Below the pieces are notes generated by a model. That model saw only the letters and a list, made by a program, of their open reading frames with translations. It was not told the origin of the DNA and searched no databases. Shown piece after piece: positions 6,784-15,910 of a stretch of DNA of 64,000 nt. The stretch is taken from the NCBI GenBank assembly GCA_963855995.1, contig OY979717.1, positions 70,168,354 to 70,232,353 of the forward strand, written 5' to 3'. Position numbers and translations under genes: made by a program. Source of the stretch: Muricea muricata. Taxonomy: Eukaryota; Cnidaria; Anthozoa; Malacalcyonacea; Plexauridae. Numbering within the stretch: the stretch's first letter is position 1; each line of letters opens with the position of its first letter.

Positions 6784-8926
<2,143 letters not shown>

Positions 8927-10221: not shown

Positions 10222-10420
10222 TTCCAGGATCGACCTTAGATTTTCAATAGGGTTATGGTCTGGGGAGCCAGGAGGCTAAATGATCAGATTGTCGTCTTTG
10301 GTGCCAATCTTCTTTATTAACCACGCAGTCGTGTATCTGGCAGCATAAGCTGAAGCCTTGCCATGCATAAATAGTAGGGTTTTTTGCAGCCAAAGTGGCT
10401 GCTTCTTCCACCAACAATCG
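10222..10420 (-). pseudogene. Tc1-type transposase fragment
   Basis: The minus strand reads MHGKASAYAARYTTAWL, then, after a stop, PPGSPDHNPIENLRSIL. The latter is the glutamate motif of Tc1/mariner DDE transposases (SPD-x-NPIE). In the former the catalytic Asp of the usual MHDNA-type motif is a Gly. With a stop between the two and nothing upstream, this is only a short dead fragment. Confidence 0.75.
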
Positions 10421-10954
10421 TCCACAAAATATATTGAAACTCCCCCCTTCCCCCAAATTTCAATGTTGAAACGCCAGCATACTTTTATCAGGGTATATTG
10501 TACCTCCAAAACTCCAGCTATCTCATTGGCAGTTATATTTCAGCGTTTCACGCTTGAATTAAGCAATGTTATACTTGAAAACAACATTGAAATAGGGGAG
10601 GGGGGTTTGTCTCAAATATTATGTGGACGATTGTCTGAAAATTAAGAAAAAATGAGCAGAGATTTCCTTTATGTTAGAATCGTTTTATAATTATGAGCGT
10701 TAATGTTAGTCGACACAAATTTGAATTCTGCATATATAAATACGATTTGCATATTTTACTAAAGATTCATAGTATAATTCACCTCGTACATGCATTGCAT
10801 TCAATGTTTATATGAATAAATGTAAAATATAATACCTTTGGCATCTCGTTTGCCTTCAAAGCGCCTCAAATTTCTAAACCATAGATATTTAAACGCACAT
10901 TATCGCAACTCATAATTCAATTTATAGAATTAGATGATATACAAATTCGTACTA

Positions 10955-11565
10955 ATGCCTCATTCATTTGTAACCACGTCCCCCCCCCCCACCCCCGGGA
11001 CATAGCGGGGAACTTAACACTAACCAAGTGTTAAAAACTGTTAATTTCCCCGCCCCTGGTGCAAAGTTACTTGTTAAACCCCCAGTATGGCAGGGCCTCA
11101 AAACATCCAAATCAACCAGATCACACATTAATTTAAAACCTTATGAAGTGTTAAAAATAGTACGCCAATATAACAAGAAAATAGTAACAGTTAATATAAC
11201 AAATATATAGCTCGTGTTTATAAATTGCGTTCAATCATGCATATCAAATTTCAAATAGATCTTTTAATACTGCTGAAATAAATAAGGTAAAACCTGGTTT
11301 AATGTATACCTACTGTAAGTTTATGAATTGCTAAGGATACATAAACATGTTAAAAATCACACTTTCTACAAGTTGTTTTGTGGGACGCCATTTTAAGACC
11401 GGCTGTTAAATCCCGATTGATTCCCCGGTGTTAAAATTCGTAGTTAATTCCACGGCACTACGGGGCATATTGCGCTGTTAAATGGCGTTAAATCCCCGTT
11501 ATATTTTTGAACGTCCCCGCTATGTCCCGGGGATGGGGGGCCGTGGTTACAAATGACTGAGGCAC
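10955..11565. mobile_element. Foldback MITE at TA target
   Basis: The arms ATGCCTCATTCATTTGTAAC and (at 11540-11565) the near-complement enclose 611 bp, with TA on both sides (10953-10954 and 11566-11567). The arms continue inward into CCCCGGGACATAGCGGGGA and complement. The middle is AT-rich and non-coding; an apparent 60-codon frame at 11028-11210 has no support. Confidence 0.75.
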
Positions 11566-11719: not shown

Positions 11720-13096
11720 ATGGATGATTTTCAATCAAAAGAACTTACAAACACGCACAATGGTCGTCGCACATATCTCGTGACCTATTCCCAAGTTGAT
11801 TTAAACAAATTTCCAACACGCCAAAGTTTTGGCGAGATGCTAGAAGAACAATTTAATGCCGGTAGCGGAAAAGCCAAAGTAAATCACTGGGCTTGTTGTT
11901 TGGAAGAACACCAAGATAAAGGATTGCATTACCATGTCTCTCTGAAATTGACTGCCCCGAAGAAATGGTTGAAGATTAAAAATTCTATTATCAAAGAGCA
12001 CAACGTAAGTGTGCACTTCTCCGACAATCACGACAACTACATAGCCGCATATAGGTACGTTTGTAAAACAGATGATCAAGTGTTTCATAGTGTAAGCCAT
12101 CCTGATCTCAACGAAGTCGGGTCACCAAAAACGAAGAATTCAACCAAAGCCTATAGAGAGTCGTGGAAAAGGGCGCGCGAATTAGAGGAGGAGATTGTTG
12201 CAGATCCTCGTAAGCAAAAGCTTCCCAATTCAACACATCCAAAGAGGTTGACAAACGCGCAAGTTTCGGAATTTTTAGTGAAGCACAATATAAAAAGAGA
12301 CAAGGAACTATTCGCTGTTGCCAAAGAAAGAAAAGATGAGGGCCAGATGGACTTGGCCAATTTTGTTCTTTCTAAGTCATCAAAGGTTCTTAACGACCTA
12401 ATTGACAAAACGTGGAAGATGGAAACGGCTAACGAGTATATTCAACAAGAAAAGAAATCGAGAATGGAAATTCTACATGAAAAACTGGGGACCGATTGTT
12501 GTCCGGACTGTGACAAGCTCTGGTTGAAATGTGCCATGGAGCTTTTGAGAAACAACAAGGTACATCCCTTCGTCTATGCAGCTGCAGTGCGCGATCTCCT
12601 TTTAAATGGAAGAGGAAAATTCAGAAATCTACTAATTATCGGTCCGGCAAACTGCGGGAAAACTTTTATGTTGAAGCCCCTGGAATCTATCTATGACGTG
12701 TTACTAAAGCCTGCTAATGACAAATATGCATGGGTCGGCGCTGATTCCGCTGAAGTAATTCTTTTGCAAGATTTCCGATGGAGCCGAGAAATGATCCCCT
12801 GGAACGATTTGCTTCTTTTGTTGGAAGGAGAAACCGTGAAGTTGCCTGCACCGAAGAATCAGTTTTCGTCTGACGTCATTATTGCGAAAGACAAGCCAAT
12901 TTTTGCATCTAGCAAATCTCGAATAACATATGCTGGTAAGTTCAACGTATCGGACGAGCGGGAGACCGAAATGATGGCAATCAGATGGAAAGTGATTGAA
13001 TTTAACCACCAGATCCCAGAAAGCGAACAAAAGAGAATTTCTCCTTGCTCACGATGCTTTGAAGAATTGACATTATTGGGAGACGAGGACATATGA
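11720..13096 (+). CDS. Rep-type HUH endonuclease with SF3 helicase
   Basis: A 458-codon, intronless, undamaged frame. The amino half carries rolling-circle Rep motifs in order: YLVTYSQ (residues 19-25, motif I), HYHVSL (70-75, the metal-binding His pair), and YRYVCK (111-116) whose Y113-x-x-K116 fits the nicking-tyrosine motif. The C-terminal half carries an SF3 helicase: Walker A GPANCGKT (308-315), Walker B VILLQDF (346-352) and a motif-C-like KPIFASSK (392-399) that lacks the usual Asn. Two cysteine pairs (260-271) could bind metal. This layout is that of CRESS-DNA, parvovirus-like and related Reps, which nick an origin hairpin and unwind DNA. A mirror-symmetric iteron array lies 67 bp beyond the stop codon. 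It could be an endogenised viral gene, a Rep-driven mobile element or a domesticated copy. The motif assignment is firm, the biological role is inference. Confidence 0.85.
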   Translation: MDDFQSKELTNTHNGRRTYLVTYSQVDLNKFPTRQSFGEMLEEQFNAGSGKAKVNHWACCLEEHQDKGLHYHVSLKLTAPKKWLKIKNSIIKEHNVSVHFSDNHDNYIAAYRYVCKTDDQVFHSVSHPDLNEVGSPKTKNSTKAYRESWKRARELEEEIVADPRKQKLPNSTHPKRLTNAQVSEFLVKHNIKRDKELFAVAKERKDEGQMDLANFVLSKSSKVLNDLIDKTWKMETANEYIQQEKKSRMEILHEKLGTDCCPDCDKLWLKCAMELLRNNKVHPFVYAAAVRDLLLNGRGKFRNLLIIGPANCGKTFMLKPLESIYDVLLKPANDKYAWVGADSAEVILLQDFRWSREMIPWNDLLLLLEGETVKLPAPKNQFSSDVIIAKDKPIFASSKSRITYAGKFNVSDERETEMMAIRWKVIEFNHQIPESEQKRISPCSRCFEELTLLGDEDI

Positions 13097-13163
13097 GTGC
13101 ATTCTATAACACTTTAATTTGAACATTCCAAAAAACTTAATACCCAAATAGGCATTAAAATGC

Positions 13164-13421
13164 ACGCGTTACCAACGCGTTACCTACGCGTTACCTTACG
13201 CGTAACCATGAGCCTCAATGTTTTTATATACTATAATTGTATAAATACGACGCGTTACCACGCGTTACCATTCTTTTTTAGAAAAGATTAACACATATAT
13301 TTTAATAAAATTTAACGGTAACGCGTGGTAACGCGTTCTATTCCTTATAGAAACGTACATAAAGGGGAATAATTCATGGTAACGCGTATGGTAACGCGTG
13401 TGGTTACGCGTGGTAACGCGT
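13164..13421. promoter_or_regulatory. Iteron array, six against six; candidate Rep origin
   Basis: ACGCGTTACC occurs at 13164, 13175, 13186, 13250 and 13260, with a variant ACGCGTAACC at 13198. The complement GGTAACGCGT occurs at 13317, 13327, 13378, 13390 and 13412, with a variant GGTTACGCGT at 13402. Measured from the centre at about 13293, the two halves have the same spacing to within a base, though the spacers themselves (42, 47 and 41 bp) are unrelated and AT-rich. Such mirrored iterons next to a Rep gene are typical of Rep-binding sites and origins. The association is inferred from position and architecture. Confidence 0.75.
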
Positions 13422-13580: not shown

Positions 13581-14640
13581 TTAGTATTTAATTCGCTGTC
13601 CTTTGGATTTGATTATCAAACTAATTCTTTTGTCCATTGAATCAATAGTATTATCAATGATATTAGTGGGAAAATTTGTCATGGTTTTTTTTACTCTGTC
13701 TGAAAATTCTTTGAAACCTTCATGTATATTATTCTCTATGGCATCGGAATTCAGTCTCCGTTTTACCAGGTGGAAAATGTTTTCAATTGGATTCATATCA
13801 GGACTTCTTGGCGGGATACTAAACTTACGGGCCCCCATACCATGAATGGCTTCTTTAGCTTTCTTACTATTCTGGGATGGGTCCCCATCTTGAAGAAATA
13901 ATTTACCCTTTGGGTTTGAACTGTTGTGAAACAAACCCGGAAAGTGTTCCCGCACAAAGTTAGCAAAACTTTGACCGTTGAGTTTTCCATGGTATTGCTC
14001 ACATAGTACCATTCCTTTTCCATGTGCTATTGCCGCGATGAAATGCGCAACTTTCCCTCCTGTAACTTCGTGGCTTCCCTAAGTTGTGCATTTGTATTTT
14101 AAGCCCTCATTACGCCTTCGCCAAGCCATTGTTTTTGGAGCTCGTGCCTGATCCGATGGATTGTAATTATGAATAAGGCTGACTCCATCAAGGTAAAAAC
14201 AAATACCATGCTTCCAAATGTTGGGATTTAACTTACGCCTGACTTTTCGCGCAAATGCAAGCCTTACTTTTAAATCTTTCTGGGTAAGGAGACCTTTCTT
14301 ACGAGCATGTCTATAGCGCAATCCACTACTTCTTAATACACGCCTGACAGTCTCATCTGACACACGGCATTTCACGCCAGCAGATACCCGAATATGCCTA
14401 CTCGTGAAATGCCCGACAGAATCTCGTAATACTTCAACCTAACGCAATATCGAACGCTTATCTCGTTCACTGAGTTTAGGCGGTCGTCCAGGATTTTGCT
14501 TTTGCTTATCAACAACCGAGCTTCCAATAGGTTTCTTCGCATGTCTATATATGCTTGCCTTCGAGAATTGTTTGTATTTATCACATAATTCTTCCCCTTT
14601 ATGCCCAAATCTTGATAAAGATATCGCAAATGGAGAGATA
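13581..14640 (-). pseudogene. Tc1/mariner transposase, two in-frame stops
   Basis: The minus strand from about 14640 reads an N-terminal helix-turn-helix region (SKASIYRHAKKPIG), an AT-hook-like GRPPKLSERDKR, then VSDETVRRVLRSSGLRYRHA. The first catalytic Asp is in FYLDGVSLIHN, the second in FLQDGDPSQN, and the Glu in SPDMNPIENI; 34 residues separate the last two, so DD34E as in Tc1. The frame is continuous except for a TAG near 14440 and another at 14079-14081; all three acidic residues survive. It is a recently dead copy that looks one or two mutations from intact. Terminal inverted repeats were not identified. Confidence 0.85.
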
Positions 14641-15120
14641 TTTCAATTATTTGGCATCTTACTCAATTTTTTGCCCTAAAATACATATATTAAAAAGCTT
14701 TCGAGAACTAGAGTTAGAAAATGGGTGTGATCTATTTTTTTTGCTGTCCCTTCTTTACAGCAACTTAAAAAGGTTAATGTCCCATAAAAACAATATCGTC
14801 AACCACGAAGAATTCATGACATGCTAATGTATGGATAAAAATCCTTCTACGTGTAAATATCGGTTGATTACTTTATTAATTACATCCCGTGAATTTATCG
14901 ATATTTTCTAACAACTTTGATAAATCACTTAGCAGATCTAAATAAAGACTTTACACTCCTTAATTACAACCTACCAACCCCCCGTTACCCCTACTTGCTT
15001 CCACCATCCCCCCCATCACAACTTGCCTTAATCTCAACATATTAGCTCTTAACACTGCGGTACATAAAAAATTTCATGAAAATCTCATCAATATTTCTGT
15101 TCTGTTTATAAATAACAAAA
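14641..15120. other. AT-rich spacer, no gene seen
   Basis: Between two transposase remnants. It contains a C-rich tract near 14970-15020 and no recognisable coding or repeat structure. An open stretch of 90 codons at 14555-14827 overlaps the transposase remnant on the other strand and has no motifs. Confidence 0.4.
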
Positions 15121-15149
15121 TAAGTTAATTTCACTACCCCGTCTGCAAC

Positions 15150-15910
15150 CCCCCCCCCCCACACTGGAATTCTCACAATTCTTTGACATTGTAACAAGTG
15201 AGTAGAAACGTAAACACAATACCTCTTGGTCGAAAATGCTTGTCACGGAAGGCACTATAAGTCGCGGCATTATAATGTTTGGCACGTCTTCAGCGCGAAA
15301 TAGTCCAATTACAGCAGTGTGTCGGCTAAGACTGCCGCCCAAAACATGATTCCTCCTCCTTCTTGCTGAGTGCTGACGGGACATTGGGACGGGGGGGGGT
15401 GATCCGATGAGACCCAGCCTCGAGCCCAGCCGTCAGGACCATCCACGTTGCACGGCATTCATCTGTAAATATAACTCGCGAAAAATCCACCTTCGTGTAT
15501 TTCTTGGCCCATTCAATTCGTTTTGTTTTATGTCTCTGGTTAAGAGGTGGATGTTTTGAGGCCTTTTTGACGCTTGCAACTTGGCATAACGCTTTGCAAC
15601 GAGAAGCACGACACAGTTTAGGCACATCACAGACCTGGAGTACCTACAGATTGTTGCTAATGGTGTTTTCACAGCTTGGCGATGGATTTGTCGCTGTTGT
15701 GGTTCGGTCAGCCTCGTAAACTTTGGCTGCACACGGTTTTTGCGTTCATGATGACTCGCTGCCACTATTTTCTTGTGCGGTGATCGCGCTGCGTGTTCTT
15801 GGCTATCTGTAATGCAGATTTTCCATTGGACAATGCTCTGGTCACATACTCTTTTTCCTCCACTGAAAGATCTGGTTTTCTGCTCAAATCACCGTGATTA
15901 TATCTCTTGC
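15150..15910 (-). pseudogene. Second, more decayed Tc1-type transposase
   Basis: The minus strand gives the N-terminal domain KPDLSVEEKEYVTRALSNG and NAKTVCSQ-like residues (about 15720-15900), then a helix-rich stretch, then the first catalytic Asp motif RVIFTDECRAT (about 15455-15490) and WARGWVSSD, then KEEGGIMFWAAV in a shifted frame, and a weak tail ending near 15150. Several frameshifts and stops separate the pieces, and the second Asp and the Glu motif are not seen. Older than the copy at 13581-14640. Confidence 0.7.

Follow-up and report, generated by a model that had tools for sequence, protein, structure and literature searches.

A geminivirus-like transposon of the truffle Tuber melanosporum is, in the consulted part of its description, a multicopy element with a Rep-like gene and transposase open reading frames (ORFs); interruptions affect Rep and one of the transposases, a second transposase is truncated, the terminal inverted repeats (TIRs) measure 37 bp, and an obvious target duplication is not recorded there (Liu et al. 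2011, PMC3198968). RepE1 cressviruses, according to the consulted part of their description, encode a Rep with an E1-like superfamily 3 (SF3) helicase together with candidate coat genes, and form high-copy integrations in sea anemones (PMC11071296). The present work concerns a Rep gene and an adjacent repeat array in the genome (453 Mb) of the coral Muricea muricata, in a stretch of 64,000 bp (C2:70168354-70232353) referred to as the window. Rep gene and array almost certainly belong to a two-gene mobile element, in which Rep is paired with a convergently oriented DDE transposase.

A DNA query consisting of Rep and the array, without the transposase, gave 38 matches, from which 20 regions of 9.9 kb were taken. 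Rep was present, whole or in large part, in 16 of these regions. Together with the window this made 17 Rep loci, and a convergent DDE transposase was found at 16 of them. Locus L029 added another convergent pair (17 of 18), and at further Rep loci, for which 1.1 kb each was fetched, the transposase was located at the predicted place in eight of eight cases, bringing the total to 25 of 26. The original prediction had envisaged either a lone gene-plus-origin replicon or a mobile element that uses Rep in place of a transposase. The former is excluded since the transposase belongs to the same element as its second gene, and the latter is contradicted by the presence of both enzymes at nearly all Rep loci.

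The intact transposase of L029 (364 aa) matched DDE_3 (2.3e-13) and HTH_23 (1.3e-06) above the cut-off and HTH_Tnp_Tc3_2 below it, and gave an E value of 4e-9 with the Sleeping Beauty transposase. A D-to-E spacing of 34 residues was found in those proteins, three of six, that fit the pattern, and also between the invariant columns D259 and E294 of A3. Its sequence places the predicted product of the second gene among the Tc1/mariner-type DDE transposases with a helix-turn-helix (HTH) and DD34E spacing. Linkage of the two genes was also apparent in public contigs. Among the matches listed, 120 Rep and 119 transposase matches had a contig size; eight exact sizes >3,500 bp were common to both sets, while 300 shifted controls averaged 0.64 and never exceeded 4, which suggests that contigs of shared size hold both genes. 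With all contig sizes included the signal was weak (nine observed, control mean 2.11, one shifted control also reaching nine). The contigs of the 120 listed Rep matches fell into classes of <3 kb (34), 3-4 kb (13), 4-5 kb (30), 5-8 kb (8) and longer (35); the local peak at 4-5 kb corresponds in length to a single unit.

Uninterrupted units are ~3.8-4.4 kb long and are built, from left to right, of a terminal repeat (TR), the Rep gene, the mirror-symmetric array, the oppositely oriented transposase gene and a second TR. The TRs are direct repeats of roughly 230-280 bp (69-266 bp as detected at nine loci) with the outer ends CAATC...GATTG, and those of the window and L029 hold inverted repeats. 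A direct TR pair was detected at nine of 15 two-gene loci in the 9.9-kb regions; seven of these nine keep both ends, and the right end is lost in L017 and L028. As read by eye, all seven loci with both ends are flanked by an exact 2-bp duplication (TG, TT, CA, TA, TA, TG and TA). Five more insertions with both ends (the C9 array, L034, L035, C2:57.7 Mb and the C3 array) all have TA. Comparison of loci, as originally proposed for defining the ends of the unit, has thus yielded TRs and exact 2-bp target duplications in 12 of 12 cases (TA 8, TG 2, TT 1, CA 1). At C1:37.4 Mb and C2:50.4 Mb the right end alone was seen.

Further copies with gene and array, a search for which had originally been proposed, exist in the same genome at many single and tandem loci, and the mobility considered at that stage is borne out. 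Rep gave 92 scored matches (of 656 candidates), with no stop in the matched stretch of 69. The tandem period is 4,023 bp on contigs C34 and C3 (with few exceptions), 4,028 bp on C9 and 4,049 bp at C1:9.80 Mb, and the arrays represent at least two lineages (C34/C3/C9 and C1:9.80 Mb). Neighbouring units of the 125-kb C34 contig are 100% identical over 4,778 positions at a lag of 4,023, and the unit (L029) encodes an intact 482-aa Rep in addition to the transposase. The arrays on C3 (17 units, by Rep matches) and C9 (5 units), whose ends were read, each extend from TR to TR, with one TA duplication around the whole array. L034 and L035, two single insertions, show 99.8% and 99.4% identity to the C34 unit, and this near-identity means that the C34-type lineage has moved recently. 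ATG-started ORFs of at least 100 aa in the 4,023-bp L029 unit were Rep, the transposase and one ORF antisense to Rep; ORFs outside the genes measured 53-83 aa, and no capsid candidate was found in this one unit examined.

Some irregularities of the tandem contigs were noted. The C34 contig changes orientation at a TR (L045, C34:91900-93600). Twelve successive units (C34:6708-51810) have one TGA in the Rep frame and the other C34 units have none, and the array therefore contains at least two blocks. The 17-unit array at C3:60576903-60645043 is located ~20 kb from the contig end, and the last 300 bp of that contig contain no recognised telomere repeat.

Four unit spacings on C3 and C34 were 3,762-3,772 bp and not 4,023 bp. 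The TR is gone at all four places, with CA left at one and CAG at two, while the fourth has lost flanking sequence too; clean 2-3-nt scars are present in three of the four short units, and a control unit (n=1) was intact. Tc1/mariner excision leaves such 2-3-nt scars, and by analogy the short units probably carry the marks of TR excision of this type. TRs were also found on their own. Thirteen of 46 TR matches, all at a distance from the identified Rep copies, were fetched; these represent ~7 independent sites, as judged from shared flanks, and 11 of the 13 have an exact 2-bp duplication (L056 has lost an end, and an end of L051 was unread by the pattern). A reading of the direct repeats as belonging to a long terminal repeat retroelement was excluded by the ORF content of L029, the 2-bp duplications and the Tc1-like scars. 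The TR cores of the window (10415-10633) and L029 (2450-2705) are alike by eye, both having a C-rich/G-rich inverted repeat ending TTTCAATGTT/AACATTGAAA; the Reps of these two lineages are 42% identical.

The copy in the window consists of the following features:

10415..10633, plus strand: left TR, reading CAATC...GATTG, with inverted repeats at its own limits; 89-96% identity to the TRs at both ends of L009 and L010, ends read by eye
10954..11565, unstranded: nested insert resembling a miniature inverted-repeat transposable element (MITE), foreign to the element; it has terminal inverted repeats, and the same place is empty in L009 and L010
11720..13096, plus strand: Rep, predicted HUH endonuclease and SF3 helicase, 458 aa, intact (ORF, motifs, fold)
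13164..13421, unstranded: mirror-symmetric iteron array and long hairpin between the 3' ends of both genes (motif count, folding); putative origin and Rep site
13584..14567, minus strand: relic of a Tc1/IS630-like DDE transposase with two in-frame stops, residual ORF 13581-14012; 42% match to aa 35-364 of the L029 protein
14671..15224, unstranded: final stretch with counterparts in other copies, ending where the element is cut off (15224)

The right TR was not found within the window, the sequence past 15224 being lost. The window copy is a decaying member of the element, with Rep and array intact, two stops in the transposase and the right end missing. Integrity of the Rep gene had been taken as a possible sign of recent arrival; taken alone it is no proof of this, as the same copy has a broken transposase, a lost end and a nested insert. 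Its surroundings had been described as a cluster of dead transposons; the relic at 13584-14567 is the second gene of the element and not unrelated debris. Rep is broken or partial in the close copies L009, L010 and L011 of the same genome, and an intact protein from a public contig (P0001) is 96% identical to the window Rep. A separate Tc1-like relic, recognised by eye, lies at 15433-15765 of the window, just past the right truncation. L009 contains an insertion of ~490 bp relative to the window copy (7528-8018) with an apparent 8-bp duplication.

The Rep ORF extends from ATG to TGA without internal stop. Its product contains the strings LVTYSQ (position 20), HYH (70), YVCK (113), GPANCGKT (308), LLQDF (348) and FASSK (395), which we take to be HUH motifs I, II and III, Walker A, Walker B and motif C, respectively. 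The predicted model (predicted local distance difference test score, pLDDT, 91) gave structural matches to adeno-associated virus (AAV) Rep, papillomavirus E1 and geminivirus Rep (Foldseek, pdb_via). Judged by this model, the window Rep is a predicted HUH endonuclease with SF3 helicase, as in the Reps of circular Rep-encoding single-stranded (CRESS) DNA viruses. ORF, motifs and predicted fold agree with the unbroken 458-codon HUH/SF3 gene originally described. In profile searches, as had been recommended, matches in Pfam, NCBIfam and PHROGs, PPV_E1_C among them, all remained below threshold. The closest named match was from Paramuricea clavata (81%), and the names on Rep relatives are those of one octocoral and two stony corals. 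Catalytic residues are conserved throughout the aligned Reps. The ratio of nonsynonymous to synonymous change (dN/dS) was 0.30 and 0.40 for the window Rep compared to pieces of L009 and L011, and ranged from 0.40 to 1.22 in other close pairs with L017/L019 at the top; L025/L026 differ by five nonsynonymous and no synonymous changes. Such values in close pairs are as expected if the copies are decaying. Between lineages, synonymous sites are saturated (proportion of differing sites, pS, 0.79-0.86; nonsynonymous, pN, 0.21-0.41).

Ten exact copies of ACGCGTTACC, five per strand, are located in 13164-13421, the first beginning 67 bp past the Rep stop codon, and two one-base variants were seen by eye at 13198-13207 and 13402-13411; the twelve copies of a 10-bp motif originally reported at this distance from the gene are thereby accounted for. 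Shuffled sequences had a mean of 0.03 copies and none of 100 reached ten, which rules out a chance array; shuffled controls cover the arrays of the window and L026. A strand of the window array folds as one long hairpin (-82.5 kcal/mol, z -13), and the L026 array is a 232-bp palindrome with 95% self-complementarity. At the 13 loci laid out, the array is mirror-symmetric about an AT-rich centre between the 3' ends of the two genes, and the long hairpin is internal to the element. The motif is ACGCGTTACC in the window, L009 and L012, ACATGTTACT in L016, L017 and L019, and ACATGTTACA in L025-L028; single loci have ACATGTTACC (L020), ACACGTTACA (L021), ACACTTAACC (L023), CGAGTAACC (L029) and AGGTAACCA (L073). 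An array-type 9-mer occurs three or more times between the genes at 16 of 17 two-gene loci, with just three copies in L010 and L024, and the association of gene and array is upheld by the recurrence of arrays with lineage-specific motifs. The motif varies by Rep lineage while place and symmetry stay, which fits Rep sites at an origin, and the array is probably the site bound by Rep and the origin. A canonical nonanucleotide was not recognised by eye in the hairpin array. The array motif was found without a Rep gene in four of the 20 fetched regions; two of these keep remnants of the Rep start and the transposase and are therefore deletion derivatives.

These features make it quite likely that the element is a dual-mode transposon, with circle replication through Rep and integration through the transposase. 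Excision or recombination between TRs would produce a circle with one TR. Rep would bind its lineage-specific iterons and open and nick the hairpin, and rolling-circle replication would give head-to-tail concatemers. The Tc1-like transposase would then cut the outer TR ends and insert, at a 2-bp target that is mostly TA, either an entire chain or one unit together with a TR; a solo TR, possessing both ends, could move as a MITE. For the part played by the transposase there is good evidence in the ends, duplications and scars. That Rep drives circular amplification of the element is, on balance, probable in view of the Rep motifs, the array and the tandem insertions.

An alternative that we consider rather unlikely is a Tc1-like cut-and-paste transposon with Rep as captured cargo, idle in copying, the arrays having arisen by unequal crossing-over between direct TRs. 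Transposase and recombination alone could explain 2-bp duplications, scars and solo TRs, and the homogeneous C34 array is also expected from exchange, which is the main rival explanation for the tandem arrays. An idle Rep is difficult to reconcile with the retention of its catalytic residues, with nonsynonymous change below saturated synonymous change between lineages, with an array motif that shifts with the Rep lineage at constant place and symmetry, and with tandem arrays in at least two lineages. Passive insertion of an endogenous cressvirus of the RepE1 type next to an unrelated transposase is very improbable: the Rep fold, the sub-threshold PPV_E1_C matches and, as far as the consulted part of that source goes, the high-copy rearranged RepE1 sequences of anemones (PMC11071296) would suit it, but the position of the transposase is constant at 25 of 26 loci, inside the limits set by TRs and 2-bp duplications, and the 4,023-bp unit examined is without capsid candidate. 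Domestication of a single Rep gene under host selection, also raised in the original prediction, is hardly credible. The window ORF stays open while its neighbours decay, and dN/dS against pieces of two related copies is 0.30 and 0.40; values below 1 are also expected of copies descended from active ones, Rep is multicopy, and the window copy sits in a truncated mobile element.

Several observations weigh against a dual-mode transposon. No circle or replication intermediate was observed, and unequal crossing-over between TRs could build identical arrays too. A nick site was not identified. The fragment L011 is without transposase, a TR pair was not seen at six of the 15 two-gene loci in the 9.9-kb regions, and many loci are close kin (L016/L017/L019; L025-L028) and not independent lineages. 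Distances of Rep and transposase correlate modestly in nine size-matched pairs (Mantel r 0.52, p 0.018), one of which is a 2.3-kb contig, chance matches being likely. Scans of IMG/VR with the window Rep and three alignments gave no relative. L018 has no visible array (0 copies; 17 two-gene loci checked). Gene copies devoid of the array, or the array devoid of the gene, had been named as observations that would reduce their association to chance; L018 and the four Rep-less regions are of these kinds, but both components are present at 16 of 17 two-gene loci.

The passage from virus to transposon is mostly deduced from relics in decay. In this element, copies that are intact and nearly identical pair a virus-type replication initiator with a classic transposase and bear marks of recent excision and insertion. 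Extrachromosomal amplification of a eukaryotic transposon before integration, the evolution of Rep-iteron specificity and the origin of tandem satellites with kilobase units would become testable with this element. We propose only tentatively that it represents a new class of eukaryotic element, a rolling-circle episome alternating with a Tc1-type transposon, with concatemer transposition and MITE-like TRs, that is coral-wide and founds satellite-like arrays of 4-kb units.

With Tc1/mariner elements it shares DDE_3 with DD34E, inverted outer ends, a mostly-TA 2-bp duplication and a 2-3-nt excision scar. It differs by the Rep gene, the internal hairpin array, the long direct repeats that carry the ends and the tandem multi-unit insertions; instead of a single gene between TIRs there are two genes, and the ends reside on direct repeats. 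The capsid expected of a CRESS-DNA virus or parvovirus was not found in the examined L029 unit. Helitrons and Replitrons likewise place an HUH enzyme on a eukaryotic mobile element, and Helitrons insert without target duplication. The coral element differs from them by its SF3 helicase, its DDE transposase and its target duplications (2 bp, 12 of 12). Teratorn, in which a large herpesvirus genome is fused to piggyBac, resembles the coral element in being a replicon joined to a DDE transposase; the coral element has 4 kb, two genes and no capsid candidate. Compared by description and not by sequence, RepE1 cressviruses have candidate coat genes in the consulted part of their source, whereas the examined coral unit has a transposase and no capsid candidate. 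A literature search by titles and abstract openings, covering part of the literature, retrieved no description of the two-gene element. The nearest precedent found for an element with Rep and transposase is the truffle transposon, as portrayed in the consulted part of its report. By description rather than by Rep sequence, both are multicopy eukaryotic elements with a Rep-like gene and transposase ORFs; unlike the truffle element as described there, the coral element has both genes intact in some copies, direct TRs, 2-bp duplications, iteron arrays and tandem insertions.
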